The notes under the pieces are model-generated. The model made no database searches, had not been told where the DNA came from, and saw nothing but the letters and a program-made list of their open reading frames with translations. A DNA stretch of 20,991 bases from positions 1-20,991 of IMG/VR virus record IMGVR_UViG_3300046559_000142, one strand, 5' to 3'. Both the position numbers and the translations under genes were made by a program. This DNA is from a virus. Shown here piece by piece: positions 2,814 to 20,991 of the stretch (the first letter of the stretch is position 1; each line of letters begins with the position of its first letter).

Positions 2814-5800
2814 CCAAAGATACCTTTCCGGTTAGCTACAAAGATCCGGTCTACGCTGCGGCCGATCAGGCTGCGTCGGACGCTGCCGGCATTCCGCCCG
2901 GTCTTCTGACGAGCATTCGTGTCGCTGGCGAGAAGTCGAACGCCAATCAGGTGTCGAGCGCGGGCGCCCGTTCTCCGTACCAGGTGACGCCCGAAACGCG
3001 CGATCTTCTCATCAAGAAGTACAAGATCGATCCGTGGGAGTCTCCGCAGGCTGCGGCGCTCGGTGCTGCATACCTGCTGAAGGAGGGTATTCAACGCACA
3101 GGAAGCGCGGCAGGCGCGGTTACTCAGTACATCGGCGGTGTCGACCCTAAGAATTGGGGCGGACAGACGCGCGCTTACACGAATCGCGTGATGGCGCACT
3201 TCACCGGCAACGGTGGACAGGACGCGCCGCAAGCAACGCCGATCCCTGCCGCTCCGCTGCCGAGCGCTGCATCGTATGGGCTCGACCCGTCTGTAGTCGG
3301 CATGGATAACGCGCCGCAGCAGCAGCCTACCGCAGCCGTGCAGGCGCCGAAGGCTGTTGCTCCCGCTGCTGGCGTGAATAACCAGATCGTCGCCGACTAT
3401 AACGCCGGACGCCTGTCGCCTGAAGATATGGCGGCTGTCGAGCAGCGCGCGTCGAAGATCGGCATCGATCCTAGCCAGTTGCAGAACCCGAATAAGCAAG
3501 CCGGAACGGGCTCGCCGATGGGCTTTGATTCGGCCAAAGGCGCGGCGCCGCAGCCGAAGCCGATCGGTCCGCAGACGCTCGCCGCGATGCAGGCTGGCAA
3601 GCTGTCTCCGGATCAACTGGCGACGATCAAGGCAGGGCTCGACAATGGCACGCTGACGATGCCGGCGAACGCTCCTGCCGCTGCGCCCGCGCAAGATGCG
3701 ACCGGTCCGCAGAATGACGGATATTTCGCTGCGGGCTTGCCTGCGTCTGCCGCTCCGACTGCGCCCGCCAATCCGGCTACGGCGGCAAAGAACGGCTCTA
3801 CGTGGTCTGACGTGGCAGAGAAAGCCGTCGGCGGTGTCGCAGGTAGTCTGCTCGACATCGCATCGGCCGGCGGGCGTCTGGTGGGCGCCAATGAGTTTGC
3901 GGACAAAGCGAACGCCGCGCATGAGCAGATCAATGCGCAGATGGCGCGCGACACGAACAACAGCGTCTCAGGCAAGGTTGCCGGCTTCGTCGGTGAGGCG
4001 GCTCCATATGCTGCGATGGGCGGCGCAACGCTTCCGGGTGCTGTCGCTGGTGGCGCTGTCGCTGGCGCGGCTCCTGCTGTGGCACAGAACAAGTCTGTCG
4101 GCGAAGTGGCGCGCGACGCGGCCGTCGGTGGCGCTGCGGGTGCGGCTGGTGTCGGCATCGGCAAGGTGCTCGGTAAGGGCGTGTCCGCTCTCGCCGAGAA
4201 TCCGACTGTCGCCAAGGGCATCGCGCGCTTGCAGGAAATGTTCGGTAAAACGCCGTCCGAAGCCACGAAGGTCGCAGCCAGTGGCGCGGCGCCTGACGCT
4301 CAGGTCGCGGCCGACATCGCAGGCGCAACCGGTCACACGCCGAGCGAGCTGGCGTCCAAGCTCGAAAAGGCGCCCGCATCGCAGACGCCGGGCTATGTGC
4401 CGAGCGCGGCCGAAATGGCAAACGACGCGAACGTGACGACGCTCCAGAAGGTGAGCACGAACGCGAACCCGTCGACGTTTGGCAATGCAAGCGCCAACAA
4501 TGACGCGGCGATTGCGTCTGCTCTGGGAAAGGGCAAAGCGCCTGGCTCGATGCCGGCCGAAGCGCCGAACACTCCTGGCACGGCAGCCAATCCGCAGGCG
4601 GCAGAGCATGCGGCGGAAGCGGCGGCGCAGAAGAGTGACGCACTCGCAGCGCAGGGCCAATCCGAGGTCAAGCCGCTCGCCAAGCCTGTTGCTGACAAAC
4701 TTCAGTCTCCGCAGTTTGAAGCGCCGGTCAAGCTTGCGCAGAAGATCGCCAAGGATCAGGGCTCGACCGTGTTCGAAGATCTGCAGAAGGCGAAGCACGC
4801 CGAGGCAGCGGCAGCGCTCGACCAGATCACCGGCACGCCCGAGCAACTAGCAGCAGCGAAGGCAGCACGCAGCGCGGATGCGGCCGACAACTTCCTTCCG
4901 CTCGACAAGTCGGCAACGCTCGAGTCTGATGCGTGGAAAAGCCTCGCGAAGCGCCCGACGTTCCGCGAAGCTATCGGAGAGGCTGGCGATATTGCAGCCG
5001 ATCGCGGCGAGAAAGCGGCAATTACTGTCAACCCGGACGGCTCCGTCACCGCAACCGGGCGCGGCTTGCTTGATGCGAAACAGGGCATCGATGGGCTGAT
5101 CTCGAAAGCTTCGCTTGCTGGCGACACGTCGAAGGTATCCCGCTACACGGCCGTCAAGGAAGCTTTGCTCAAGGAAATGGACACGGCATATCCGAAGTAC
5201 GGTGCGGCCCGCAAAGCGTACTCGGACGCGTCTGCTCCAATCGATGCGATGACGGCATTGCAGACTCGAGTCAATGGCGCCATCAACCCGACAACGGGCG
5301 AAGTTAGCTCGAGCAAACTTATCCAGACGATCAATAGCATCAAGGCCGAGCAGATGAAACCCGGCTTCCGTCCGGCCGACAAGGTGCCTGATGCAACGCT
5401 GGATGCACTCGCAGCACTGGCAAAACATCTCGAGAACAAAAACGATCTGACGGGCTTGCCTGCCGAAGGGCAGGAATACATTCGGCGCGCGCTTGCCTCG
5501 AGCGAGAAGCATGCCGCGGCGCATCAGGAGTTTAAGAGCGTGCTCGACGCGCAATCGCCGGCCTACAAGGAACTGCACGGCGCGCATGCGCAGAACGTAG
5601 CGGCCATCGATTCGCAGAAGGCCAGTCAGACGGCACTCGCGCAGGCGGAAGAGGCGGTACGGAACGCCGACTCGCCCGGCAGCCTGAAGGCGCTCGACAA
5701 GCTGCTCCCGAACATGGAAGCGGCCGACAGGGCCAAAGCGATCGCGCTACGCCAGCAGAAGGCGCGCGAGCTGGCAATGAGCGAAGTTGCCGAGCGCAAC

Positions 5801-6334
5801 AAGAACAGCCGCGGCGAAACGGAATTCAACCGCGGCACATTCAAGAGCGCATCCGACAAGTATTCGCCGTTCATGTCGAAAGAGGACGCAAGCCAGTTCG
5901 GCAGCGTTGCGCAGGATCTGCACAACCAGACGACGACATACGCCAAGACGGGCAAGATCGGCGGCAGCGACACGATGCAGAACCAGAGCGCGGCCAAGCG
6001 GTTCGGCCGCAATCTCGGCGACGCTCTGAAAGATGTGGGGGTGCAGGCATTGATCGGCGGCGGAGTCGGTACGGCGATGGGTCCGCTCGGGACGATCGGC
6101 GGCGCAGCGGCCGGCGCAATCACTGGCGCACTGACGCGCACGATCACGCAAAAGGTCTCGTCCATCACGACCGAGAACGCCGCAAAGCTATTGTCGAACG
6201 GTAAACTATTGGCCGCAGCGCTACGGAACTATGACTCTCTCGCCGCGCGCCGTCTGTTCGTTGAGCAACTGTCGCAACGTGCAGGCTACGCCGCAGGGGC
6301 TGCCGCAGCGAATCAATTTAACGGTCGTCGTTAG
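2810..6334 (+). CDS. large ejection protein with N-terminal lytic transglycosylase (SLT) domain
   Basis: This 1174-residue protein starts with a soluble-lytic-transglycosylase-like domain (about residues 12-130). The catalytic Glu is predicted at E41 in AGEKSNANQVSSAGAR, followed by SPYQV and a late GGVDPKNWG motif, the form seen in podovirus ejection proteins that cut peptidoglycan during DNA entry. Residues ~195-280 hold two copies of a short repeat (NAGRLSPEDMAAV and QAGKLSPDQLATI). Two Gly/Ala-rich hydrophobic stretches at ~389-460 and ~1080-1115 look like glycine zippers that could insert into membrane. Between them lies a long Ala/Lys/Glu-rich helical region. It is the last and largest of the ejection genes, comparable in role to P22 gp16 (609 residues) but nearly twice as long. 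The start overlaps the previous stop as ATGA. Confidence 0.85.
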   Translation: MTKDTFPVSYKDPVYAAADQAASDAAGIPPGLLTSIRVAGEKSNANQVSSAGARSPYQVTPETRDLLIKKYKIDPWESPQAAALGAAYLLKEGIQRTGSAAGAVTQYIGGVDPKNWGGQTRAYTNRVMAHFTGNGGQDAPQATPIPAAPLPSAASYGLDPSVVGMDNAPQQQPTAAVQAPKAVAPAAGVNNQIVADYNAGRLSPEDMAAVEQRASKIGIDPSQLQNPNKQAGTGSPMGFDSAKGAAPQPKPIGPQTLAAMQAGKLSPDQLATIKAGLDNGTLTMPANAPAAAPAQDATGPQNDGYFAAGLPASAAPTAPANPATAAKNGSTWSDVAEKAVGGVAGSLLDIASAGGRLVGANEFADKANAAHEQINAQMARDTNNSVSGKVAGFVGEAAPYAAMGGATLPGAVAGGAVAGAAPAVAQNKSVGEVARDAAVGGAAGAAGVGIGKVLGKGVSALAENPTVAKGIARLQEMFGKTPSEATKVAASGAAPDAQVAADIAGATGHTPSELASKLEKAPASQTPGYVPSAAEMANDANVTTLQKVSTNANPSTFGNASANNDAAIASALGKGKAPGSMPAEAPNTPGTAANPQAAEHAAEAAAQKSDALAAQGQSEVKPLAKPVADKLQSPQFEAPVKLAQKIAKDQGSTVFEDLQKAKHAEAAAALDQITGTPEQLAAAKAARSADAADNFLPLDKSATLESDAWKSLAKRPTFREAIGEAGDIAADRGEKAAITVNPDGSVTATGRGLLDAKQGIDGLISKASLAGDTSKVSRYTAVKEALLKEMDTAYPKYGAARKAYSDASAPIDAMTALQTRVNGAINPTTGEVSSSKLIQTINSIKAEQMKPGFRPADKVPDATLDALAALAKHLENKNDLTGLPAEGQEYIRRALASSEKHAAAHQEFKSVLDAQSPAYKELHGAHAQNVAAIDSQKASQTALAQAEEAVRNADSPGSLKALDKLLPNMEAADRAKAIALRQQKARELAMSEVAERNKNSRGETEFNRGTFKSASDKYSPFMSKEDASQFGSVAQDLHNQTTTYAKTGKIGGSDTMQNQSAAKRFGRNLGDALKDVGVQALIGGGVGTAMGPLGTIGGAAAGAITGALTRTITQKVSSITTENAAKLLSNGKLLAAALRNYDSLAARRLFVEQLSQRAGYAAGAAAANQFNGRR

Positions 6335-6342
6335 GACTCCAA

Positions 6343-6801
6343 ATGACAAAGCCAGTTTTCTCCGTCGAGCGGTTCCAGGATGTCTACGACGAACTGCTGC
6401 CGCTTCTGCGCAAGCACTACGACGAGATCAGCCTGCACAAGCAACAGGGATATGACCTGAAGCCGAATGTCGGCCTCTACCGCGCGATGCAGGACGCAGA
6501 TCAACTGACGATGATGATCGGCCGCTTGGACGGGCGGATCGTCGCTTACTTCGTCGTGTTCGTGCGGCCGAGCATCCATTACGGCGACTGCCTGGAAGGA
6601 ATCGGAGACATCTTCTTTGTCGAACCAGGTCTGCGCGGGCTGATGTACGGACTGGCTCTGTTTGAGGCAACTGAAAACGAACTGAAGCGCCGAGGCGTCA
6701 AGTGCTTTATGGCCGGCGAAAAGGTCGCATTCCCCGCGCGTGCTCTGTTTGAGCGGCGCGGCTTCGAAGAAATCGAAAGGAAACACGCCAAATGGCTTTG
6801 A
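6343..6801 (+). CDS. phage GNAT-family N-acetyltransferase-like protein
   Basis: This 152-residue protein has the layout of a phage GNAT subfamily. An N-terminal helix contains DELLPLLRKHYDEI, followed by a strand AYFVVFVRP (about 68-76). The acetyl-CoA loop region is IFFVEPGLRGLMYG (about 89-102), and the C-terminal FERRGFEEIER strand-helix closes the fold. The Q/RxxGxG pyrophosphate loop is degenerate (RGLMYG), as it often is in this subfamily. The substrate is unknown; a virion or host protein is possible. The gene has a good ribosome site (AGGA 8 nt before ATG). It ends 10 nt inside the portal gene, so the enzyme is made as part of the late structural operon rather than as a separate moron. 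Confidence 0.75.
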   Translation: MTKPVFSVERFQDVYDELLPLLRKHYDEISLHKQQGYDLKPNVGLYRAMQDADQLTMMIGRLDGRIVAYFVVFVRPSIHYGDCLEGIGDIFFVEPGLRGLMYGLALFEATENELKRRGVKCFMAGEKVAFPARALFERRGFEEIERKHAKWL

Positions 6802-9089
6802 CCAAAGAAGAACGGCACGGCAAGGTTTGGGACCGCGCGACGGCCCGGTTCGATCGCGCCTACGGCCCGCAACAGCAAATTCGGCTCGCCTCGCTCGAAG
6901 ACCGGCGCTTTGCCTATGTCGACGCGGCTCAGTGGGAAGGCGGTCTAGGCGCGCAGTTCAACAACCGGCCGCGCTTCGTCGTCAACAAGGTGCAGAAAGC
7001 CGTTCGGCGCATCGTCTCCGAGTACCGCGCTAATGCGATGACGGTCAACTTTCGGTCGAGCGAAGACGACAGCCGGCAGGATGATCTCGACGCGCTGCGC
7101 ATTGTCTACCGCTCCGACGAGCAGTACAGCAGCGCGCAGGACGTCTATGTGTCGGCATTCGACGAAGCGGTCGCGGGCGGCATGGGCGCCTGGCGCCTGA
7201 CGAACGACTACGATCACCGCGCGGAAACGGATCTGGACGACGACACGCCGCAGCGGATCTGCTTCGAGCCGATCCCTGACGCTGACATTTCCGTCTTCTT
7301 CGATCCGGACAGCCGCAAGCTCGACAAGTCAGATGCCAAGTGGTGCACTGTGCTTAACCCAATTAGTTGGGATACCTACACGACCGAATATCTCGGCGAC
7401 GAGGTGGAGCTGACCGAGCGCCCGACCAGTTTCAAGGCGGTTCGCTCGCTGAAGCAGTTCGATTGGTTCACGAACGATTCCGTCTACATCGGCGAATATT
7501 ACGAGGTCGAGCAGAAGGTCGAGAAGTACTCGGTCTGGCGCGAACCGCATTCGGGCGTGGAGCAGAAAGTCTATGCCGGGCTCGATGCAGAAGGGCGCGA
7601 GGATGCGGAAGAGCAGGAGCAGCATTACGCCTCGATCGGCTATATCAAGGTTCGCAGCGGCAAGCGCAACAGCAAGAAGGTACACAAGTACTTCATGGAC
7701 GGCTGCGGCATCCTGAAGGACTGTGGCTACATCGCTGGCACTGAGATCCCGATCGTCGTCGTCTACGGTATCCGCCAGGTGATCGACGGCATCGAACGCG
7801 TCCAAGGTGCAGTGCGCCTCGCGAAGGACTCGCAGCGCCTGTACAACATGCAGATCTCGACGCTCGCGGACATTACGGCATTTACGCCGCGCGAGAAGCC
7901 TATTTTCACTCCCGAGCAGGTCGCAGGGCATGAGCTGACATGGGCTGGCGATCTCGTTGCGAACAATCCGTATCTGCTCATCAACCCGGTGACGGGCGCC
8001 GACGGCTCGCAGACGATCGCCCCGCCTGTTGGCTACATCAAGCAGCCGGACGTTCCGCCCGCGCTGGCTGGCCTCGTGCAGATCACGGCAGCCGACATGC
8101 TCGACGTGACGGGCGGCGATCTGGCAGCCGGTCAGGTAACGTCCAACACGTCTGATGCGCTGGTGAGTCGTGTGCAGGCGCATCAGGACATGCAGGTCTA
8201 CATCTTCATCGACAACATGTCGCGCGCGATGCAGCGCTGCGGCAAGATTTACCTGTCGATGGCGTGCGACATCTACACCGAAGACAATCGCAAGTTTTCC
8301 GCCAATGGCGAGGATGGATCGCCCGAATCGACGTCGATCAATGTCCCGTCGATCGACGACGAAGGCAAGCCGACGATCGCCCGCGCGTTCACGCCCGGAC
8401 TTGATGTGTTCGTTGATGTGGGCCCGGCGTTCAACAGCCGCAAGGATTCGACCGTCAACGCAATCGCCAAGATCCTGCCGGGCATCGTTGATCCGCAGAT
8501 GCAACAACTGATGGTCGCAACGCTGGTCCGCAATCTGGACGGCGAGGGCATGGAAGACCTTTCCAAGTTCGCGCGTATGCAGCTCGTCAAGGCTGGCGTC
8601 GTCAAGCCGAACGACGAAGAAGCACAGCAGTTGCAAGCCGAGCAGCAAGAGGCAGCAAACGCACCGCCCGACGCTCAGACGGTCGCTCTGCTGGCTCAGG
8701 CGCGCAAGGATGCAGCGAGCGCCACGCAAAGCGAAGCATCGGCTGTGCAGGCTCTGTCGACGGCCGAACTCAACCAGGCGAAGGCTGCCGAGTCGATCTC
8801 AAACACGAACGCCAGCCAGTTGTCGACGATCATGCAGATGCTGCAAGGCATCCAAGATCGCGTCAACCAGCAAGCGGGCCAGGTGAATCAGGATCAGCCG
8901 CAAAGCCCGATGGACGGCAAGGTGAACCAGGCGATCTCGTCTGGTGTCGCGGCGCCGTCGCCGGGTGTCAACGCGCTTCACGGTACGCAACAGGTCGATC
9001 CGACCGCGCAGGCGTTGACCGCGGGCAATGCGCCGGCAGCCGCACAGGCTCCGGTCCATGTCTCTAACCGTCCTGCGGTGGGCCATTGA
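6792..9089 (+). CDS. portal protein, P22 gp1 family
   Basis: This 765-residue protein forms the dodecameric ring at the capsid vertex through which DNA is packaged and ejected. The N-terminal half carries the P22-portal pattern: FNNRPRFVVNKVQKAVRRIV, a later GGMGAWRLTNDYD, then FEPIPDAD and DPDSRKLDKSDAKWC. These match in order the P22 gp1 segments I remember (FNRVRPVVRRLV, GYGAWRL, SKLMDKSDARHC). Length is close to P22 gp1 (725). Residues ~620-720 are Ala/Gln-rich and likely coiled coil, corresponding to the C-terminal barrel of P22 portal. A ribosome site (AAGGAAA) precedes the ATG, which overlaps the GNAT gene. The stop overlaps the terminase start as TTGA. Confidence 0.92.
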   Translation: MALTKEERHGKVWDRATARFDRAYGPQQQIRLASLEDRRFAYVDAAQWEGGLGAQFNNRPRFVVNKVQKAVRRIVSEYRANAMTVNFRSSEDDSRQDDLDALRIVYRSDEQYSSAQDVYVSAFDEAVAGGMGAWRLTNDYDHRAETDLDDDTPQRICFEPIPDADISVFFDPDSRKLDKSDAKWCTVLNPISWDTYTTEYLGDEVELTERPTSFKAVRSLKQFDWFTNDSVYIGEYYEVEQKVEKYSVWREPHSGVEQKVYAGLDAEGREDAEEQEQHYASIGYIKVRSGKRNSKKVHKYFMDGCGILKDCGYIAGTEIPIVVVYGIRQVIDGIERVQGAVRLAKDSQRLYNMQISTLADITAFTPREKPIFTPEQVAGHELTWAGDLVANNPYLLINPVTGADGSQTIAPPVGYIKQPDVPPALAGLVQITAADMLDVTGGDLAAGQVTSNTSDALVSRVQAHQDMQVYIFIDNMSRAMQRCGKIYLSMACDIYTEDNRKFSANGEDGSPESTSINVPSIDDEGKPTIARAFTPGLDVFVDVGPAFNSRKDSTVNAIAKILPGIVDPQMQQLMVATLVRNLDGEGMEDLSKFARMQLVKAGVVKPNDEEAQQLQAEQQEAANAPPDAQTVALLAQARKDAASATQSEASAVQALSTAELNQAKAAESISNTNASQLSTIMQMLQGIQDRVNQQAGQVNQDQPQSPMDGKVNQAISSGVAAPSPGVNALHGTQQVDPTAQALTAGNAPAAAQAPVHVSNRPAVGH

Positions 9090-10360
9090 GCGAAATCTCG
9101 CTTCCTGATTGGGCCGAGTGCCTACTTAGCCAAGGCCCGCGCTACACCATCTTCCACGGTGGGCGCGGGTCTGGTAAGTCGATGGCCTGCGCGACAGCGC
9201 TTGTGATCCGCGCCGCGGCCGAACCGCTGCGTATTCTGTGCTTCCGGGAAATTCAGGAATCGATCGACGAGTCGGTAAAGGCGATCATCGAGCAGCGCAT
9301 TAAAGACTGCGGGCTCGAAGGATTCTTCACGATCCTGAAAAAGGAAATCGTTGGCCAGAATGGCAGCAAGTTCATTTTCCGGGGGTTGAGTGATGAAACG
9401 GCCGACTCGATCAAATCCCTGAATGACATCGATATAGCTTGGGGCGAAGAGGCGCAGGCTCTGTCGAAGGAATCGCTTCAGCTTTTTCTGCCGACGATAC
9501 GGAAAGACACGTCAGAAATCTGGTTCAGCATGAACCCGGAGCTAGACACCGATTACGTCTATACCGCATTCATTCAGAAGCGACCGCATAACGCGCGGAT
9601 CGTCGAGGTGAACTGGGATCGGAACCCGTTCTGGAACGCGGCGATGGAAGCAGAGCGGCTTCGATCGAAACAAGACGACCCGGACGATTACGACCACGTT
9701 TGGGAAGGCGTTCCAAAGTCGGCTGTTGCAGGCGCAATCTACCGTCGAGAAATGCATTTGCTTGTGACCGAGAACCGCATTCGGCCTCTTCTGGCGGACC
9801 CGACGCTCGGGACTCACGCGATCTTCGACCTTGGCATCAACGACATGATGGCCGTTACGGTCGCGCAGGCCGACATTAGCGGCGCCCGCATAGTTGGCTA
9901 CCACGAGGACAGCAACTATGGGATCGACCATTATTGCGAATGGCTGAAGGATACTGGCCGGAAGGATGCGGTTATCTGGCTTCCGCACGACGGCAACGCG
10001 CGGTCAGTTCAAACTGGTCTGACGACGCGCCGAAGCGTCGAAAATCTCGGGTGGCAAGTTGAAATTGTTCCTGAAATCGGGGTCGAGCCGGGCATTAAAA
10101 AGACACGCAATATGCTGAAAAACGCTTTTGTCTCAGACTCGCCGGATTGCGCGATTTTGGTTGAGCACATGCGCCGCTACACGCGCGCAAAATCCGGGCA
10201 CCCGAAGCACGACGAGCATTCGCATTGCGCCGATAGCGTGCGTTACACATCGGTCGCAATGGAGCATTTTAAGAACGTATCCGAGCGGAAACGCAACACG
10301 GCCGAAGCCGCAAGGAATGTGCGGATCATCCCCACGGTGAACCATTGGGCCAAGGTGTGA
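9086..10360 (+). CDS. terminase large subunit (PBSX/Terminase_3-like)
   Basis: This 424-residue packaging motor has an N-terminal ATPase and a C-terminal nuclease. Walker A is GGRGSGKS at residues 25-32. Walker B with the catalytic Glu is DIDIAWGEEA (D116, E121, E122). The nuclease domain shows its usual three acidic positions: D248 in IFDLGIN, D302 in LPHDGNA and D383 in HCADSVRY. The frame is closed upstream by a stop at 9065-9067. No ATG or GTG lies between that stop and the Walker A motif, so TTG at 9086 is the only reasonable start; it overlaps the portal stop. The small terminase subunit is not in this window. Unusually, the gene lies after the portal, and is followed by the convergent minus-strand cassette. 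Confidence 0.93.
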   Translation: MSEISLPDWAECLLSQGPRYTIFHGGRGSGKSMACATALVIRAAAEPLRILCFREIQESIDESVKAIIEQRIKDCGLEGFFTILKKEIVGQNGSKFIFRGLSDETADSIKSLNDIDIAWGEEAQALSKESLQLFLPTIRKDTSEIWFSMNPELDTDYVYTAFIQKRPHNARIVEVNWDRNPFWNAAMEAERLRSKQDDPDDYDHVWEGVPKSAVAGAIYRREMHLLVTENRIRPLLADPTLGTHAIFDLGINDMMAVTVAQADISGARIVGYHEDSNYGIDHYCEWLKDTGRKDAVIWLPHDGNARSVQTGLTTRRSVENLGWQVEIVPEIGVEPGIKKTRNMLKNAFVSDSPDCAILVEHMRRYTRAKSGHPKHDEHSHCADSVRYTSVAMEHFKNVSERKRNTAEAARNVRIIPTVNHWAKV

Positions 10361-10455: not shown

Positions 10456-11034
10456 TTACTGCACGCGCAGGTCGATGACCATGCTGAGCCGATCGACCGA
10501 CGACTCATTGCGCACTTCGTGCATCAGATCGTTGCGGAAATGGAACATGCGACCGGTCAGCATTTGCAACGTCTCGTCTCCGCTCGTGATGATGGCGCCT
10601 GGCTGACCCTGAATCACCAGATGGAAGCGCTTCCAATAGCAGGTTTGCTCCGGGGTGTCCGCGTGCGGGTAGATCCGGCCGCCTGGTCGAATGCGATTAA
10701 TCAACACTCGGCCGATGCGTGTCGCTTGCGTGAACCGTGCTAGATCAAATATGAACGGGTGCGCTTGGGTAAGCTTATCCCACGCAGGACGGGCGATAGA
10801 TTCGTGCTGGTCTACGCCGGCAATCTTGTTCTGCTTGTACAGCTCGATCTCTTCCTCACTCATTCCGGTTTTGATCTCCGGGAAGCGAAGCATGATCGTA
10901 TCGGTATCGCCGAACGGCCCCTGCTGGAAATTCCGTAAGAAGGTGTCCGGCTTCCACAGATCCGGGTTTGTCGAGATCGCGAGCGCGAGGGCGCCAACGT
11001 CCATGCCATCTTTGATTACGTGAAAATTGCGCAT
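10456..11034 (-). CDS. Asp/Asn beta-hydroxylase-like 2-oxoglutarate/Fe(II) oxygenase
   Basis: This 192-residue protein has the metal-binding pattern of the aspartyl/asparaginyl beta-hydroxylase family. HxD is at H124-A-D126 in GGRIYPHADTPE, the distal histidine is H172 in MHEVRN, and a candidate 2-oxoglutarate-binding arginine follows at R182. The strand order around WKRFHLVIQG and the late MVIDLR also fits the cupin fold. Such enzymes hydroxylate side chains using 2-oxoglutarate and O2; the target here is unknown. The start chosen is ATG at 11034, which forms a TAATG junction with the membrane-protein gene. A longer frame upstream would read through that gene. There is no signal peptide, so it is cytoplasmic. 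It is the last protein gene of the minus-strand cassette. Confidence 0.82.
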   Translation of the reverse strand: MRNFHVIKDGMDVGALALAISTNPDLWKPDTFLRNFQQGPFGDTDTIMLRFPEIKTGMSEEEIELYKQNKIAGVDQHESIARPAWDKLTQAHPFIFDLARFTQATRIGRVLINRIRPGGRIYPHADTPEQTCYWKRFHLVIQGQPGAIITSGDETLQMLTGRMFHFRNDLMHEVRNESSVDRLSMVIDLRVQ

Positions 11035-11486: not shown

Positions 11487-12332
11487 ATGGACCAAGAGAT
11501 CGAAACGCAGCAGCCGGAACTCGAACAGGAGCAGCCCGAGGAAGTCGCGGCGCCCGCGTTATTTGACGACGAAGACCAGGAATCGGAAGCGCCCGAGTCG
11601 ACGGACGGCGCCGAGCAGCCCGAAGGCGAGCCGCAATCGCTGAAGGGCCAGCCGGCGCCGAAGTGGGTCGCGGATCTGCGCAAGAGTCACAAAGAGATCA
11701 TGCGCGAGAAGCGCGAGCTCCAGCGCGAACTCGAAGAGATCCGCTCGAAGCTTCCGCAGCCTGCGCCGACGCTCACCGCCAAGCCGACGCTCGACCAGTA
11801 CGACTACGACGAAACGCGGTTCTCGGAGGCGTATGACAATTGGATGGAGCAGAAGGCCAAGCTAGACGCGGCCGATCGCGCCAAGCTCGACGCGCAGCGC
11901 AAGGAGCAGGAAGAGGTCGAGAACTTCCGGAAATCCTATGCCGCCCGCAAGGAATCGCTCGGCGTGGCTGACTTCGAAGAAGCCGAGTCCGAAGTCGGCT
12001 CGATCCTGAACCAGACGCAAGCTGGTCTGCTGATGCGCGGCGCCGACGATCCCGCGGTGCTGGTCTATGCGCTCTCGAAGTCTCCTGCTCGGCTGATCGA
12101 ACTGTCGAAGATCGCCGATCCCGTCAAATTTACCGTCGCAGTCGCGAAACTGGAAATCTCCTTGGCTACCAAGAAAACAACCCGGCCGGCGCCCGAAGCG
12201 CGCGTGACGGCAGAGCGCGGAACTGGCTTCAACGCGACCAGCTCGCAACTCGACAAACTGCGAGCAGAAGCCGAGCGCACGGGCGATTACTCGCGCGTCG
12301 TTGCTTATAAAAAGCAAATGGCGCAGAAGTAA
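11487..12332 (+). CDS. capsid scaffolding protein
   Basis: This 281-residue protein has the composition and layout of a P22-like scaffold. The N-terminus (1-55) is very acidic and probably disordered. A basic/acidic coiled coil follows (about 60-90, KSHKEIMREKRELQRELEEI) and a second helical Lys/Glu-rich region spans ~110-160. The C-terminus (about 253-281) is a basic helix pair ending in YKKQMAQK. In P22 gp8 the C-terminal helix-turn-helix binds the coat protein and drives procapsid assembly, after which scaffold exits and is reused. The gene lies directly before the coat gene, as expected. A ribosome site (GAGGGTGAG) precedes the ATG. The call is by composition and position, not by a sequence motif. 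Confidence 0.82.
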   Translation: MDQEIETQQPELEQEQPEEVAAPALFDDEDQESEAPESTDGAEQPEGEPQSLKGQPAPKWVADLRKSHKEIMREKRELQRELEEIRSKLPQPAPTLTAKPTLDQYDYDETRFSEAYDNWMEQKAKLDAADRAKLDAQRKEQEEVENFRKSYAARKESLGVADFEEAESEVGSILNQTQAGLLMRGADDPAVLVYALSKSPARLIELSKIADPVKFTVAVAKLEISLATKKTTRPAPEARVTAERGTGFNATSSQLDKLRAEAERTGDYSRVVAYKKQMAQK

Positions 12333-12535: not shown

Positions 12536-13852
12536 ATGGCACAGCCTCCGGCAACACCGTTCCTTTCGACTGCGAACTCGTTCTCGAAAGAAGAGCGCAT
12601 CGCATTCGAAAACCTCCTCGAAGGCTTCAACGACCAACTGGTCATGTCGAAAGCCGTCACCGTCTTCTCGAACGATCAAACGATGATGGCCCGCGCTGGC
12701 GATATGATTCGCCGCCCGATGCCGTACATCGCCCGTTCGTTCTCGGGCCTAGATCAAACCGCAAACTTCGTCGGCAAGACGCAGCTGACCGTGCCGGCCG
12801 CAATCGACACGATCCGCAGCTCCCCCTGGACGATGGATGCGACCGAACTGCGCGACGCGCTGCAAGAAAACCGCCTCGGCACGGCTGCAAAGCAAAAGAT
12901 CGCCTCCGACATCAACGTCGACGTCGTGAACGCCGTTTCGACGCTCGGCTCGCTCGTCGTGAAGCGCACGGTTGCTGCAACCGGCTTCGACGATCTGGCG
13001 CAAGCTGATTCGCTGATGAATGAGTCGGGCATCGACTACGACGGCCGTTACTCGGTCTTCGGTTCACGCGATTACAACGCAATGGCCGGCAACCTCGCCA
13101 GCCGCGCATATCTGGTCGAAGGCCAGAAGGCTGCAACCGCCTACGAAATGGCAACGGTCGGCCGCCAAGTGGCAGGCTTCGAGCGCGTGCTCAAGGCTGA
13201 CTACCTCGCGCGCCTTGCTGCTGCTGCTGGCGTGACGGTCACGGTGAACGGTGCGAACCAGTACACGGTTCCGAAGGCTCTGGCAGCATCGCCGAGCGGC
13301 CCGCTGCAGTCGAACGTCGACAACCGCATCCAGGCGCTGGCAATCACTGTCACGTCGGGCACGGTCAAGGTCGGCGATGCATTCACGATCGCAGGCGTGA
13401 ACAACGTGCATCCGATCACGAAGATTGACACCGGCCAGCTCAAGACCTTCCGCGTGGTCGGCATCGTTTCGGGTGCAGGCGGTACGGGTACGGTTCAGAT
13501 CACCCCGGCGATCATCTCGGGCCAGGGCGCGACGGACGCGGAACTCGCGTACAAGAACGTGACGGCAACCCCGGCAGCGGGCGCAGCGATCACCTGGCTC
13601 AACACGGTCACTTCGGGCGTGAACTGCTTCTGGAAGAAGGAAGCGGTCGAAATCCTGCCGGGTCGCCTCGCGGTTCCGTCGGATCAAGGTCTCGCAGTGA
13701 TGCGCGGCACGACCGACCAGGGCATCGAGATCGTGATGACCAAGCAGGCGCACATCGAAACGTACAAGTCGCTGTATCGTGTCGATGCGTTCTACGGGGT
13801 CAGCGTCACGAACCCTGAAATGGCCGGCATCATGCTCTTCAACCAGACGTAA
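12536..13852 (+). CDS. major capsid (coat) protein, P22 gp5 family
   Basis: This 438-residue protein follows P22 gp5 (430 residues) along its length. Shared features include a central GRQVAGFERVLKA segment (P22: QRQVAGFDDVL), then the inserted I-domain (about 235-350) with VDNRIQALAIT, VKVGDAFTIAGV and VVGIVSG...VQITPAI. Next come AYKNVTATP, a CFWKKEAVEILPG strand (P22: NVFWADDAIRIV) and a late YRVDAFYGVSVTNPEMAGI (P22: WYGVNATRPEAIGV). It forms a HK97-fold icosahedral shell assembled around the scaffold. The start ATG follows AGGA by about 10 nt. The gene has a long leader with a stem-loop and a strong hairpin just after it, consistent with separately boosted expression. Confidence 0.93.
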   Translation: MAQPPATPFLSTANSFSKEERIAFENLLEGFNDQLVMSKAVTVFSNDQTMMARAGDMIRRPMPYIARSFSGLDQTANFVGKTQLTVPAAIDTIRSSPWTMDATELRDALQENRLGTAAKQKIASDINVDVVNAVSTLGSLVVKRTVAATGFDDLAQADSLMNESGIDYDGRYSVFGSRDYNAMAGNLASRAYLVEGQKAATAYEMATVGRQVAGFERVLKADYLARLAAAAGVTVTVNGANQYTVPKALAASPSGPLQSNVDNRIQALAITVTSGTVKVGDAFTIAGVNNVHPITKIDTGQLKTFRVVGIVSGAGGTGTVQITPAIISGQGATDAELAYKNVTATPAAGAAITWLNTVTSGVNCFWKKEAVEILPGRLAVPSDQGLAVMRGTTDQGIEIVMTKQAHIETYKSLYRVDAFYGVSVTNPEMAGIMLFNQT

Positions 13853-15155: not shown

Positions 15156-17114
15156 ATGTCCACAATCGGGGATCTTTGCGTTACATCGTCGGTAAGTTCC
15201 GATGACAAGTTGCCGATGTGGAGCAACGCGAACGGCGTGACGCGTGCGCTGCCTATCTCGGTGCTCGATGGGCGTTATCTGACGCAGGCGGACATTGCTG
15301 CGCTTGCGGCAAGTGCAACCGTCGAGACGTTCGTGTCGGGTGCAGGCTTTACGCCGGGTGTTACGCTCTCGCTGACGCTCGCCAATTCGTACCTGTCGAA
15401 ATCGAACATCGAAGTGTTCTTCGATTCCGCGTTTCAAGGACCGGAACAATACACGCTCGTCGGCCAGTCGCTCGCGTTCATTTCGCCCATTCCCGTAGGA
15501 GTGCAAAGCGTCTATATCCGCGGTGGCGCAACGCGCGTCACTGGCGCGCCTTCTGACGGCACGGTGACGGATGCGAAGGTCGCGGACGGCTCCAAGCTTT
15601 CGAACCGCATCAGCACGGTCAATGTGCTTGATTTCGGCGCCGATCCCCTTGGTGTTATCGACAGCACGGCGGCATTCCAGGCTGCCGTGAACAAAGGGCG
15701 TCAGGTCATTGTGCCGGCCGGTACGTATGTCATGGGTCAGATCACGATCCCGTCGAATACTGCTGTCTTGGGTGAGGGCGTGTCGTCAATCGTCAAGCCG
15801 ATCCCCGGCTTCTCCGGTTCTTCGTGGTGGGTTACGTCCGGTTCGAACATTGAAATCGGCGGCCTCCAGATGATCGCGCTGGTTGCGACTTTCCCCGGCG
15901 TGATTCCTATTTTCGGCAATCCGGGCGATCGCAACTACGTTCACGACATCTACATGCCGGAAGGCGGCTCCATCGGCATCTACACGTCGAATTGGACACA
16001 CTCGACCGCGGCGCGCGTGACGGTCATGAAGGCTGTGAACGTCGGGATTCTTTTTGACGGATCGAGCGGCAGCACGAACACCATCCGCAATTGCCACGTT
16101 GAAACAACGGGCAGCACGGCGATCGTCATGCAGTTCGGCACGCGTCACCAGATGCACGACTGCGTATCTGTGAACGCTGGCGGCTTTGGTATCACGATGC
16201 AGTTCGTCACTCACGGTCAGATGTATTCCAATCGCGTTCACAACAGCGTGAAGGAGGGTATCACCTACGGCGGCGATGGCGCGTCAGATGGCGACGTGTA
16301 CGGAAACGTGCTCACCTGGGACGCGGGCGTGTCGCAGGATTTCGGCATGTCGCTCGGCGCCAACGGCAGCGGCGGCATTTTCCGCATCCGCTACCGTGGG
16401 AACCGAATCGTCGGTTGCGGGAAGTCGGGCATCGCCTTCGCGGCTGATGCTACGTCGGGCTGGTCTGTCATCCAGTGCGAGGCATCCGACAACATCATTA
16501 TCGACAGCAATCAGCTTGGGCTCGGGCCAGTCAATGGCGGCGGCGCTGGCGTGATCCTGTACGGCGCGACGTGCTCCGGCAACATCGTCCGAAACAACAC
16601 GGTCGAAGACACTGGCGGCGGCAAACTGAACTACGGCATCTTTGAGACGCAGATCGGCGCAGGCGGATTCCCGCAGAACAACGTGTTCTTCCAGAACAAG
16701 ATCGAAGGCCAGTCGTCCGTTCGCGTTCAGAAGACCGGCCACAGCGCGGAGGCTTACTGCCAAGACCCGATCGTTGGATATCTATCGTGGACTCCGACTG
16801 TGGGCGCCGGCACTGGCACGCTCACCGCTGTTTCGACCCTCGCAGCGTACTACCGGGAAAAGAACTCGGAAGTCGAGTTTTACGCTGAATTCCAGATCAC
16901 GAATAACGGCACGGCTGGACAGACGTTCACGTTCACGCTGCCGTTCTCTGCCGCCTTCGGTATGGGGTATGGCCGCGAAAACGTGCTGACGGGATCGGGC
17001 TTGGTCGTAAGCATCGTCGGGAATGTAGCCACTGTTCGCACGGTGGCGAACGCCTATCCCGGTGGCACCAACGCAGTAATCGAAGTAGCAGGAAGCTTTA
17101 CGCGGACCTTCTAA
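15156..17114 (+). CDS. receptor-binding spike with pectate-lyase-like beta-helix (probable polysaccharide depolymerase)
   Basis: This is a 652-residue protein. Residues ~1-150 form a connector: KLPMWSNANGVTRALPISVL, a DGRYLTQADIAALAASA helix, and a strand-rich part. At ~152 the classic start of a Pectate_lyase_3 beta-helix appears (VNVLDFGADPLGVIDSTAAF, then VIVPAGTY), followed to ~540 by repeated short turns with NIIIDSN and RNNTVE ladders typical of right-handed beta-helices. Residues ~542-652 are a separate beta-sandwich containing TFTLPF. Such trimeric spikes bind and often cleave capsule or O-antigen. No P22-type head-binding domain is present, so it must attach through another protein, probably the preceding adaptor. 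Active-site residues cannot be assigned from sequence alone. Confidence 0.85.
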   Translation: MSTIGDLCVTSSVSSDDKLPMWSNANGVTRALPISVLDGRYLTQADIAALAASATVETFVSGAGFTPGVTLSLTLANSYLSKSNIEVFFDSAFQGPEQYTLVGQSLAFISPIPVGVQSVYIRGGATRVTGAPSDGTVTDAKVADGSKLSNRISTVNVLDFGADPLGVIDSTAAFQAAVNKGRQVIVPAGTYVMGQITIPSNTAVLGEGVSSIVKPIPGFSGSSWWVTSGSNIEIGGLQMIALVATFPGVIPIFGNPGDRNYVHDIYMPEGGSIGIYTSNWTHSTAARVTVMKAVNVGILFDGSSGSTNTIRNCHVETTGSTAIVMQFGTRHQMHDCVSVNAGGFGITMQFVTHGQMYSNRVHNSVKEGITYGGDGASDGDVYGNVLTWDAGVSQDFGMSLGANGSGGIFRIRYRGNRIVGCGKSGIAFAADATSGWSVIQCEASDNIIIDSNQLGLGPVNGGGAGVILYGATCSGNIVRNNTVEDTGGGKLNYGIFETQIGAGGFPQNNVFFQNKIEGQSSVRVQKTGHSAEAYCQDPIVGYLSWTPTVGAGTGTLTAVSTLAAYYREKNSEVEFYAEFQITNNGTAGQTFTFTLPFSAAFGMGYGRENVLTGSGLVVSIVGNVATVRTVANAYPGGTNAVIEVAGSFTRTF

Positions 17115-17147: not shown

Positions 17148-17312
17148 ATGAACGATTTGGCAGCAAGCGCAGCCAAGGCTGCACCGCCGTTATCGGCGAC
17201 TGTCGCGACGCTGCTTGGTTATGGGCTGCAGGACTGGTTAGTCGTTATCACGATCCTATACACCATCCTGCAAACGGTCTTTCTGATTTACGACAAGTTG
17301 TTTCGCAAATGA
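17148..17312 (+). CDS. short single-span holin candidate
   Basis: This 54-residue ORF starts at an ATG with an upstream CGGGGAATTGAA ribosome site and ends in an ATGA overlap with the endolysin. Residues 1-27 are Ala-rich and mildly hydrophobic. One clear membrane span lies at about 28-48 (WLVVITILYTILQTVFLIY), followed by a basic end, KLFRK. Small size, one span, charged C-terminus and direct coupling to a cytoplasmic lysozyme match the usual pattern of a phage holin or holin regulator. The sequence itself does not match a family I can name. Confidence 0.72.
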   Translation: MNDLAASAAKAAPPLSATVATLLGYGLQDWLVVITILYTILQTVFLIYDKLFRK

Positions 17313-17779
17313 ACAACGAAAACCTTCAGAAGCTGATTGCCGAGCTGCGCCGCGACGAGGGCGTTCGATACTCCGTCTACAAAGACACGAAGGGTATCGA
17401 TACGGTCGGCGTCGGCCATAACCTGCAAGCGAAGCCGATGCCGGCTGGCTGGTCTTGCCCGCTCAATGATGTTCAGGTCAATTCCCTGCTCGACGACGAT
17501 CTTGAAGACGTCTTTCACGATCTCGACCGCAACTTGCCGTGGTGGACGGATCTTAGCGATGTACGCCTGCGCGTGCTCACTAACATGTGCTTCAACATGG
17601 GAATCGGCCGCTTGCTTGGCTTCAAGAAGGCGCTGATCGCAATGCGGCAAGGAAAGTTCTCTATCGCCGCCGACGAGATGCTTGATTCAAAGTGGGCGCG
17701 CGAAGACGTCGGAATAGGCACGCCCGACAAACCGGGCAGGGCGCTTCGCCTGGCAAACATGATGCGCACGGGGGCTTGA
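17309..17779 (+). CDS. endolysin, T4-type lysozyme (glycoside hydrolase 24)
   Basis: This 156-residue muramidase cuts the glycan strands of peptidoglycan at lysis. The catalytic Glu-Asp-Thr triad is spaced exactly as in T4 lysozyme: E17 in RRDEGVR, D26 in YKDTKG and T32 in TVGVGH (8 and 5 residues between). The C-terminal lobe also follows T4 lysozyme: NMCFNMGIGRLLGFKKAL, then an AADEML...KWA helix and a closing ANMMRTG. Length is close to T4 lysozyme (164). There is no signal peptide or signal-anchor stretch, so release depends on a holin. It overlaps the holin gene by 4 nt and is followed after 1 nt by the second membrane protein. Confidence 0.92.
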   Translation: MNNENLQKLIAELRRDEGVRYSVYKDTKGIDTVGVGHNLQAKPMPAGWSCPLNDVQVNSLLDDDLEDVFHDLDRNLPWWTDLSDVRLRVLTNMCFNMGIGRLLGFKKALIAMRQGKFSIAADEMLDSKWAREDVGIGTPDKPGRALRLANMMRTGA

Positions 17780-19271: not shown

Positions 19272-19379
19272 TCAGCCGCCTCCGATGTAGTAGGCGAGCC
19301 AGAAGCTGAACGCAAGGCCAAGCAGGGCCAGCAGAACCGGCGCGGTGGCAAATGTCTGATTATTTTTGGCGTTTGACAT
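19272..19379 (-). CDS. tiny single-span membrane protein
   Basis: This 35-residue ORF lies on the minus strand. After a polar start (MSNAKNNQTF) it is one hydrophobic span (about residues 13-32, containing VLLALLGLAFSFWLAYY) and ends in GGG. It starts 8 nt after the stop of the 66-residue gene, so it would be the last gene of the minus-strand operon. Its stop lies one nucleotide from the convergent fibre-like gene. No strong ribosome site is visible, and translation may depend on coupling. No family is recognised; its reality rests on the clean hydrophobic pattern and its placement. Confidence 0.42.
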   Translation of the reverse strand: MSNAKNNQTFATAPVLLALLGLAFSFWLAYYIGGG

Positions 19380-19588: not shown

Positions 19589-19644
19589 GTTTGCGAATTA
19601 GAAGTTATCGTTCTGAAATTGCACACAGGGTTACGCACCGTTTC

Positions 19645-19653
19645 TGTGGATAA
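19645..19653 (-). promoter_or_regulatory. DnaA box (exact TTATCCACA)
   Basis: On the minus strand this is the exact consensus DnaA box TTATCCACA. It lies 25 bp before the first of three palindromic repeats, beside a rep-like gene, so it fits a plasmid origin that uses host DnaA. Confidence 0.7.
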
Positions 19654-19658
19654 CTGGC

Positions 19659-19667
19659 TGTGGACAA
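19659..19667 (-). promoter_or_regulatory. second DnaA box (TTGTCCACA)
   Basis: TTGTCCACA on the minus strand differs from the consensus at one position and is a form common in G+C-rich bacteria. It has the same orientation as the exact box and starts 14 bp from it. Confidence 0.62.
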
Positions 19668-19677
19668 CATTCGATTA

Positions 19678-19758
19678 GCCGCTGACGAGCGGCCTATCGT
19701 TTTCTGATGCGCCGCTGGTGAGCGGCTTATCGAGGCGAATACGCCGCTGGCCAGCGGC
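19678..19758. repeat. three palindromic iterons, origin-like
   Basis: Three 16-bp palindromes share GCCGCT-N4-AGCGGC: at 19678-19693 (centre GACG), 19711-19726 (GGTG) and 19743-19758 (GGCC). Start-to-start spacing is 33 and 32 bp, about three helical turns, so a protein would bind all three on one face. The first two are also followed by a TATCG. They sit between two DnaA boxes and an AT-rich stretch, next to the 3' end of the rep-like gene. The best reading is iterons bound by the Rep-like protein; a centromere-like parS site is the alternative. Confidence 0.75.
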
Positions 19759-19802
19759 ACTATATAGATTCTATATATCTTAAAGTCTTTAGATGGGATA
19801 AC

Positions 19803-20351
19803 TCAGTCCGACTTCTTGGGGGTAACTTCGACTCCGACGACGGCCGGCGCATTGTAGTTGTTCACGGTCGCATGTGAGCCAGTCAGGAAATTGGCGTTTA
19901 AGACGATCTTGACCTCTAGACCTCCCTGCATACTCCCGCTCGCCGCGAACGCCTTCAGCTGGTCTAAAACCTGTTGAAACTGCATCGGGATGTACTTCGC
20001 CTCGCCGTGCATTGCGATCTCGCCATTTGCTGCGGTCATCGGTATTTGCTCCGTCAGTTCATACGAATTGCTTCGCCCGAGTTTCCTTCGTGCAACGATT
20101 CCCATTTCATCCAGCTTTGTCAGCGCCCTGTCGACCGTATCCAGCGAGATTCCGACGTGCTTGGCTATCGCATCGCGCCCAGGATAGGATTTTCCCGTAT
20201 CGAGCGCGGCATAACTTTTGAGCACGCAGTACACCGCCCACGCATATACGCCCATTTCGGCGATCTTGTCGCGCTGGATCATCGCGCGCACGACGTGGAA
20301 CCAGTGATTCTCGACCTTCAATTCTTCCCACAACTCCGGCTGATCGTTCAT
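19803..20351 (-). CDS. winged-helix Rep-like protein (probable replication initiator)
   Basis: This is a 182-residue protein. The N-terminus WEELKVENHWFHVVRAMI leads into a helical part, and residues ~54-100 form a winged helix of the HTH_36 type: YPGRDAIAKHVGISLDTV (recognition helix), then RALTKLDEMGIVARRK and a GRSNSYEL wing. Such domains occur in phage and plasmid replication initiators and in phage regulators. The last ~80 residues have no recognised motif. The gene overlaps the ParB-like gene as TGATG and ends next to the iteron-like origin, which favours an initiator over a plain repressor. If it binds the three palindromes it could also control its own level. Many known Rep proteins are larger, so the call is moderate. 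Confidence 0.66.
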   Translation of the reverse strand: MNDQPELWEELKVENHWFHVVRAMIQRDKIAEMGVYAWAVYCVLKSYAALDTGKSYPGRDAIAKHVGISLDTVDRALTKLDEMGIVARRKLGRSNSYELTEQIPMTAANGEIAMHGEAKYIPMQFQQVLDQLKAFAASGSMQGGLEVKIVLNANFLTGSHATVNNYNAPAVVGVEVTPKKSD

Positions 20352-20671
20352 CAGTACCCTTCCCGCTCGGCCGCGGCGATCTCTCGATCAAGCGCTTTCT
20401 CAAGCGCCTCAGACACGAACCCCTTTAGGTTTTCGATTCTCCCCCATGTCTTGAGGGTGTGGAGTTTCGTCTGAATCCGGCGCGGCACTTCATAATTGGC
20501 CTTGACCACATCGTCTTGGCCGTCCCAAGGGCGTTTTCTCGCCTCTCTCTCAGGTTCTTGTTTGGTTGCTTCCTTCCTTGGTTCCTTGGTTTCTTCCTTG
20601 CTTGCTTCCAAGGTTGCCGGCGCCGCGGCCCCTTTCTTCGTCACAACCATATCGAGCGTCGCCTTAGACAT
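20351..20671 (-). CDS. small ribbon-helix-helix partition protein (ParB/ParG-like)
   Basis: This is a 106-residue protein. Residues 1-55 are Lys/Glu/Ala-rich and probably disordered, which in ParG-type partners is the arm that touches ParA. Residues ~57-98 form a ribbon-helix-helix: strand KANYEVPRRI, helix QTKLHTLKTWG, helix LKGFVSEALEKALDREI. The start at 20671 was chosen because AAGGAG lies 9 nt upstream and it overlaps the end of parA by 8 nt. An open frame upstream exists but is inside parA. Small RHH partners next to ParA define type Ib partition systems, where the partner binds the centromere. The centromere may lie upstream of parA, outside the window. Confidence 0.7.
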   Translation of the reverse strand: MSKATLDMVVTKKGAAAPATLEASKEETKEPRKEATKQEPEREARKRPWDGQDDVVKANYEVPRRIQTKLHTLKTWGRIENLKGFVSEALEKALDREIAAAEREGY

Positions 20672-20991
20672 GGGCTTTCTCCTTCTTCGCTGGTTTGTCG
20701 AACAGGCCAACAAGGAAGCTCGTCACGTTGTCGATGATGATGGCGCCAGTCCCTTGGCTGACTTCCTGAAACGTCAGGCCCGGTATCATCGACTCCCAAT
20801 AGCCGTTCAGCTTCGGTACAGCGTGCGGGATAACCGGCCCCATCGATGCCAGCTTCCGCGTGGCCGACAGCGTGACGGCTTTCCCGTTCGTCTCGTTGAG
20901 CAGAAAATAGAACTTCTTCCCCTCCTGCTCGCACAGGTCGACGGTGCTTTCGGCGGCCCGGATGTCGTGCGGCGAATGCTTGGCCGGGATG
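20664..20991 (-). CDS. ParA-family partition ATPase, C-terminal part
   Basis: The minus-strand frame is open from the window edge to a TAA at 20664-20666, giving the last 108 residues. It begins IPAKHSPHDIRAAESTVDLC, then KFYFLLNETNGKA, a TRKLASMGPVIPHAV stretch, Y..S...GLTFQEVSQGTGA and a final DNVTSFLVGLF helix. This is the C-terminal third of ParA/Soj ATPases: the 'IP..PSP.DI.A...TV.L' segment, 'LN......A' strand and 'G.T..E......A' loop occur in the known order. ParA moves plasmid copies apart using ATP and nonspecific DNA binding. The Walker A part lies outside the window. It overlaps the ParB-like gene, so the two are translated together. Confidence 0.82.
   Translation of the reverse strand, partial: IPAKHSPHDIRAAESTVDLCEQEGKKFYFLLNETNGKAVTLSATRKLASMGPVIPHAVPKLNGYWESMIPGLTFQEVSQGTGAIIIDNVTSFLVGLFDKPAKKEKAHV

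Follow-up and report, generated by a model that had tools for sequence, protein, structure and literature searches.

The locus raises the question of how a virus with a P22-type virion persists in its host. A P22-like late operon lies directly beside a partition, replication and origin module, and the original prediction held that the prophage is kept as a low-copy circular plasmid rather than integrated. The DNA analysed here (the window) comprises 20,991 bases and is a fragment from IMG/VR (IMGVR_UViG_3300046559_000142). It is classed as linear and is open-ended, and only half of parA lies inside it.

On the plus strand, an ejection protein, large proteins, the portal, the terminase, the scaffold, the coat, spike-like proteins and an endolysin follow one another in the order of a late operon. 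We identified a DNA ejection protein (766-1449; phrog_598, 3.4e-23), a P22/Sf6-type portal protein (6792-9089; PHROG and structure matches), the large terminase subunit (9086-10360, listed with a TTG start; the gene caller favoured 9182), a scaffolding protein (11487-12332; phrog_648, 2.7e-41), a P22-type coat protein (12536-13852), a tail-spike/appendage-like protein (15156-17114) and an endolysin of the phage lysozyme type (17309-17779; profile match). The coat matches both the P22 coat structure 2xyy (1.3e-33) and PF11651 (3.2e-100), and the portal matches the Sf6 portal 7sfs (3.4e-113) and the P22 portal 3lj5 (4.7e-83). The window thereby fulfils the criterion for a P22-like virion, homologues of the P22 coat and portal, and the predicted juxtaposition of this coat and portal with a plasmid module is borne out by the structure and Pfam matches. 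The portal is less than 60% identical to the portals of all 235 matching phage records. The spikes that had been claimed together with coat and portal stand only in part: there is a PHROG tail-spike match, but it covers only about 60 residues in a short N-terminal part of the protein. A 1174-aa protein (2810-6334, plus strand) matches a transglycosylase at its N-terminus only and is probably an ejected virion protein. Antisense inside the late operon (10456-11034, minus strand) lies an aspartyl/asparaginyl hydroxylase-like gene (PF05118, 6.3e-11), whose homologues adjoin an acetyltransferase gene in the related records G006 and G015.

At the other end of the window, three minus-strand genes with overlapping ends encode ParA, a 106-aa protein and a putative Rep. 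The ParA portion comprises the C-terminal 108 aa of a ParF-type Walker ATPase (20664-20990, minus strand, stop at 20664), the remainder lying past the window edge. Taken alone, this fragment has no match in Pfam or PHROG. It does match plasmid ParA genes (tblastn) and is 95% identical to residues 107-214 of the complete 214-aa ParA of G006, which confirms that the predicted ParA C-terminus is one. The full-length G006 protein matches AAA_31 (6e-13), the ParA-like phrog_164 (4.1e-26) and the solved structures of ParA 5u1g (8.9e-13) and ParF 4dzz (1.7e-12). Its residues 2-203 align with 4dzz, and it is thus a small ParA without an N-terminal DNA-binding domain. Small ParA size is a defining mark of type Ib (ParF/ParG-type) partition. 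The eleven ParA references that we compared are at most 61% identical to one another.

The 106-aa partner gene (20351-20671, minus strand) overlaps the ends of both parA and rep. Its product probably is a ribbon-helix-helix (RHH) centromere-binding analogue of ParB/ParG, an assignment that is weak and leans on two helices (64-75, then 82-103) in a predicted structure. The protein has no match in Pfam. A structure search returned nothing significant, and since its best folds, ParD antitoxins, were reached only at E 3.5-6.9, the RHH fold is probable but not shown. Hence the predicted small gene with two helices is present, whereas the fold attributed to it lacks confirmation from the structure library. 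In G027 (L075:7266-8001), two small partner genes stand in tandem between ParA and Rep, and the second belongs to the window's RHH type, as expected for a remnant of exchange.

CCAAGG and CAAGGAA repeats occur upstream of parA in relatives, a region that lies outside the window, and within the first 70 codons of the RHH gene; in the window they occupy 20554-20615, in the 5' coding part of that gene. In six relatives, codons 1-70 hold 6-7 copies of the motif, a number that 0-2 of 2000 synonymous-codon simulations reach. The motif was picked after the sequence was seen, and of the nine relatives in which it was counted, six were simulated. G023 has the altered form CCAAGA at both sites. We regard these repeats as a candidate centromere by inference, without binding data.

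The third gene (19803-20351, minus strand) encodes a 182-aa protein with a winged-helix domain, whose recognition helix spans about residues 69-78, and a conserved C-terminal region. Matches to HTH_36 (1.6e-8), phrog_28562 (1.7e-16) and the replication initiation family phrog_270 (1.3e-7) agree with the predicted winged-helix, Rep-like protein. In the structural model only about residues 20-100 are well predicted, the C-terminal region being of low confidence, and a comparison with the PDB found generic winged helices only. Judged from sequence alone, including the repeats and DnaA boxes described below, the protein is most likely the replication initiator, and we refer to it as Rep. In G015 (L038:13405-14297) two successive winged-helix ORFs replace the single Rep; the second resembles by eye the G020 type and is followed by different iterons and a DnaA box.

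Directly downstream of rep, a repeat search combined with shuffles found three 16-bp iterons of the form GCCGC...AGCGGC, numbered from rep outwards (iteron 1, 19743-19758; iteron 2, 19711-19726; iteron 3, 19678-19693). Their starts at 19678, 19711 and 19743 give spacings of 33 and 32. An AT-rich stretch read by eye (19760-19795) is a candidate DNA unwinding element, its function being inferred. Two DnaA boxes follow on the minus strand: one with one mismatch (TTGTCCACA, 19659-19667) and one perfect (TTATCCACA, 19645-19653). None of 60 dinucleotide shuffles gives an equally good triple of iterons, and two such boxes arise in 0.3% of 300 shuffles. With tandem direct repeats, DnaA boxes and AT-rich DNA beside rep, the window fulfils the criterion for an iteron replicon, and the iteron-type origin had been correctly placed on the same strand as the par and rep genes. 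On the shuffle tests we reject chance as the source of the repeats. A transcription terminator is rejected as well, as there are three near-identical copies beside DnaA boxes and their sequence is family-specific.

This arrangement recurs among relatives: in 19 of 22 regions (9/10, and 10/12 further ones) the iteron triple downstream of rep beats every one of the 60 shuffles, and 22 of 28 loci have a perfect DnaA box no more than 230 bp away. The repeat sequence varies among families while the layout stays constant. Individual DnaA boxes are weak evidence singly (up to 8.7% of shuffles). The iteron test failed in three regions, those of plasmid pRBH2-3 (39 and 33 of 60 shuffles as good), L074 (6/60) and L090 (11/60). 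GC skew gave no consistent origin signal in G006 and G008, with raw extremes elsewhere in both; the detrended maximum is at 10183 in G006, near the rep end at 10293, and at 14215 versus 6418 in G008.

We found that the iteron half-site varies with the recognition helix of Rep. Helix SKAQVHRAL pairs with half-site GTCTC (3/3), SKSQ[VI][LI]R[AE]L with GTGTC (6/6), S[KR]RQ[IV]IN[DE]L with GTGCA (2/2) and, in the window type, SLDTVDRAL with GCCGC. The GTGTC class includes L074, although its iteron triple does not beat shuffles. For the test we left out the G020- and G015-type Reps and L066 and collapsed near-identical Reps, which kept 17 proteins, 15 of them in the main clade. The half-site covaries with Rep residues 69-77 after allowing for the remaining protein (0/5000 label permutations), and the top five of 173 sliding windows begin at residues 67-71. 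Because the half-site classes had been named after the helices were seen, the test was repeated in a label-free version (partial r 0.49, reached by 0/10000 permutations). In this version a second stretch, windows 87-90 in the wing, scores equal to the helix. Because the Rep alleles share ancestry, the permutation counts cannot be read as exact probabilities. The pairing is statistical, and binding is inferred.

Plasmid records were compared with the window. The search of ParA and Rep against them bore out the predicted plasmid affinity: the trio of parA, small gene and rep is found on pA29BJ2 and pRBH2-3. Polaromonas plasmid pA29BJ2 (104 kb) has the gene order of the window, and behind its rep come DnaA boxes and three iterons of the CCCTTA type spaced by 32-33 bp. 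It differs in being a catabolic plasmid that bears several tyrosine recombinases; neither a phage structural gene nor a further replication initiator is among the features given in its PLSDB table, which is incomplete. A ParA (37%), a small gene (102 aa in pRBH2-3) and a Rep homologue (30%) stand in the order of the window on the circular A. baumannii plasmid pRBH2-3 (75 kb; about 66/75 kb covered) and in Acinetobacter phage vB_IME_Ab2712. Unlike the window, they have an N4-type capsid gene and an annotated 'recombinase family protein', and we found no iterons or DnaA box behind the Rep of pRBH2-3.

Few of the plasmid and phage records searched contain this Rep family. With L019-type Rep as tblastn query, matches were found in 2 of 72,556 plasmid records (E 1e-3) and 3 of 50,697 phage records (1e-2). 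The window Rep (tblastn, E 1) matched 48 plasmid and 14 phage records; among the matches listed (30 plasmid, 14 phage), nearly all are short and confined to the helix-turn-helix, and beyond pA29BJ2 and pRBH2-3 there is a Streptomyces plasmid (6e-6 over 45% of the protein). Rep homologues occur in 5 of 399 Burkholderiales genomes, a metagenome-assembled genome (MAG) included, one of them only at 1e-9. From pA29BJ2 and these genome matches we infer that the hosts are probably Burkholderiales.

Scans of viral contigs yielded 15 loci with the Rep query and 14 with the ParA query, and a scan with an alignment of three Reps yielded 21 viral loci, part of them known from the earlier scans, as well as the Burkholderiales MAG just mentioned. 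Exact end overlaps close G006 and G008 (127 bases; 25 records tested) and, among 10 of the 15 second-round records, G025 and G031 (127) and G032 (105); a 15-base overlap in G021 was not counted. Terminally redundant virion DNA also yields exact end overlaps, and closure is therefore no proof of a plasmid; the closed contigs are compatible with an extrachromosomal prophage. Compared with the window, G008 has a portal and coat at 93% and a Rep at 95% but a different ParA and partner gene, while G006 has the window's ParA, RHH protein and Rep together with a distant P22-fold virion (coat 32%). All five closed relatives carry a ParA (several types, by Pfam) beside rep-ori. Both G006 and G008 have repressor-like genes (phrog_5736, phrog_12107) and O-like initiators (phrog_6493), with DnaB in G006 and a DnaC-like loader in G008, so that lytic replication seems separate from rep-ori. 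The Rep records include both PF11651, the P22 coat (15/30), and the N4-type capsid TIGR04387 above cut-off (6/22: G019, G025, G026, G030, G031, G036), and we take it that one replicon family serves two virion types. The module is thus common to phages that are not P22-like and to a plasmid with no phage genes annotated, a spread that the original prediction did not include. N4-type capsid genes accompany parA and rep in closed G025 and G031, in the plasmid record pRBH2-3 and also in G019, which is not closed; N4-type phages may have plasmid lysogens. An acyltransferase-3 gene (PF01757) lies just beyond the origin border in G006 (L033:10526-11605) and G009 (L040:16118-17215), a position that is likely a cargo slot for surface modification.

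An integrase had been named as the feature that would refute a plasmid prophage. Neither the tyrosine integrase family PF00589 nor the serine resolvase family PF00239 is matched in any of the five closed relatives or in the window fragment, whereas PF00589 was found in 14 of 14 control genomes. Across all records, PF00589 matches occur in 3/24 of the first round and 6/15 of the second, and PF00239 matches in 0/25 and 2/13. The Rep-bearing records with a PF00589 match are G020, G021, G023, G029, G033, G034, G037, G038 and the whole MAG G039; six of the nine also have ParA. No ParA match was found across the whole records of G036-G038, where Rep is present. In L090 and L091 (IMGVR 2684623063 and 2654587795; 57 kb), which lack a ParA match anywhere in the record, a Rep 47% identical to L019 adjoins a 404-aa ORF matching tyrosine integrases and a 79-aa gene of AlpA-like appearance (judged by eye). 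Integrative elements may also be served by this Rep family.

We compared the window with related contigs (matches of at least 85% identity and 60 bases) to locate the borders of the module. All 12 contigs that break within 20000-20991 (contig ends excluded) lose homology at the rep start codon, at 20349-20353. Eight of them retain rep-ori without the window's par genes (G003, G005, G007-G012), and four retain par without the window's rep-ori (G015, G016, G017, G024). On the far side of the origin, the break falls at 19599-19641, just beyond the DnaA boxes, in 9 of 11 contigs and at 19373 in the remaining two, G001 and G005. Many contigs are near-identical, so the 12 breaks represent about five arrangements, not 12 events. 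The clearest cases are G016 and G017, which have the window's virion (96-98%) and par genes (96.6%) with a different rep and origin in between. From these alignments, rep+ori and par appear to be separable cassettes that relatives trade.

Other readings of the module have to be weighed against a plasmid replicon. The winged-helix protein, instead of initiating replication, could belong to a partition system of three genes as its second centromere-binding or regulatory component, with the repeats as its centromere; the model matches nothing more specific than generic winged helices, among them TubR and the pNOB8 centromere-binding protein with weak scores. We consider this unlikely: the repeats adjoin DnaA boxes and AT-rich DNA, rep+ori is exchanged apart from parA-RHH, and significant iterons accompany Rep both in G036 (L089), whose whole record has no ParA match, and in L092, which has no ParA in its 16.5 kb of available sequence. 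The absence of another initiator from the incomplete gene table of pA29BJ2 points the same way. That rep-ori is merely the lytic origin of an ordinary phage, ParA having some other role, seems very unlikely to us, given that G006 and G008 have O-like genes of their own, accompanied by DnaB or a DnaC-like loader, and that the trio occurs both on a plasmid without a listed phage structural gene and alongside two unrelated virion types; still, phage replication initiators are often winged-helix proteins (PHROG matches), and the early region is not visible in the window.

Integration by a recombinase that is encoded beyond the window or belongs to a family not recognised here, with the plasmid module helping only after excision or decaying, is supported by the nine Rep-bearing records that match the tyrosine recombinase family and by the P22-like PLSDB circles pAS51-4 and paNv_CH9 with an annotated integrase. 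The lack of matches to either recombinase family in the closed relatives, set against PF00589 in all control genomes, speaks against it, and we find it decidedly unlikely. The explanation that we favour, with good confidence, is that the window comes from a temperate podovirus with a P22-type virion that lives most likely as a low-copy circular plasmid with exchangeable rep+ori and par cassettes. The usual marks of a phage-plasmid are present: virion genes, a plasmid-type initiator and origin (on sequence grounds only) and a partition system (ParA, with a probable RHH partner). As a P22-type phage carries a plasmid copying-and-sorting kit, prophage life as a free plasmid is probable. The predicted phage-plasmid is thus supported by the junction of the module with a P22-type late operon and by closed relatives without an integrase match, but the plasmid state itself remains inferred and unproven.

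In the scheme that we propose, parA, the RHH gene and rep would form one operon with overlapping ends. Rep would bind the three iterons just 3' of its gene and DnaA the adjacent boxes, the AT-rich stretch would melt, and host enzymes would copy the circle. ParA and the RHH protein, the latter probably on the CCAAGG repeats in or near the par genes, would distribute the copies to daughter cells. Lytic replication would run separately through an O-like initiator with a DnaC-like loader or DnaB, as annotated in two closed relatives. The rep+ori and par units would be exchanged independently at the rep start codon, and incompatibility should change with them. Binding, replication, partition and incompatibility are inferred throughout.

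Due to its combination of features, the window can be compared with several known systems. The P1 plasmid prophage likewise has an iteron origin, Rep, DnaA boxes, par genes alongside and separate lytic replication; it differs in its virion, its larger ParA and its HTH ParB, whereas the window has a small HTH_36 Rep, a ParF-type ParA and an apparently RHH partner. Cluster A mycobacteriophages are siphoviruses of actinobacteria. In those with parABS, it takes the place of the integration cassette and an origin is linked to it, with repA opposite to parABS and no repeated motifs identified there by the authors (PMC7157519); in the window, rep closes the par operon and an iteron origin lies behind it. 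Bellas et al. (2015) reported environmental circles of 37-38 kb from glaciers with ParA and/or ParB and a terminase, some with integrase or toxin-antitoxin genes, and the accessible part of that report contains no rep or origin description that we met (PMC4490671). Partition with a linked origin in place of integration is established for cluster A, and ParA/ParB circles of similar size have been reported from glaciers. pAS51-4 and paNv_CH9, the 2 inspected of 16 PLSDB records with a matching portal, share the P22-type coat and portal with the window, but ParA is not annotated in them. A 2026 survey lists 5,712 phage-plasmid-like genomes, 4,395 of them from IMG/VR, and relatives of the window may be included. 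In our searches of open-access papers we found no description of the Rep family, of its helix-iteron pairing or of its use by P22-fold and N4-type phages, no recognised report of a P22-like or other podovirus with a plasmid module apart from the glacial phage-plasmids, and no paper on pA29BJ2 or on phage-plasmids with N4-like and Acinetobacter features.

Overall, we suggest, as a proposal that could equally prove right or wrong, a community of phage-plasmids, probably of Burkholderiales, that share one undescribed replicon family. Its specificity would lie in the recognition helix of Rep together with an iteron half-site of ~5 bp that matches it, and rep+ori, par and virion would be three traded modules with sharp borders at the rep start codon and just outside the DnaA boxes. 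Exchange would reset incompatibility and let related prophages coexist in one cell, much like immunity-repressor swaps of integrated prophages, and the span from P22-fold to N4-type virions would imply plasmid lysogeny in N4-type phages. Although the plasmid and phage collections searched contain hardly any trace of the replicon, phages of at least two virion types carry it. Escape from incompatibility through replicon exchange is an idea already raised for phage-plasmids and P1-like elements (PMC10879196). Since rep and its origin move together and the iteron sequence changes with a short helix, the family offers a natural test of such escape, and its occurrence beside N4-type capsid genes suggests that not all N4-type phages are strictly lytic.
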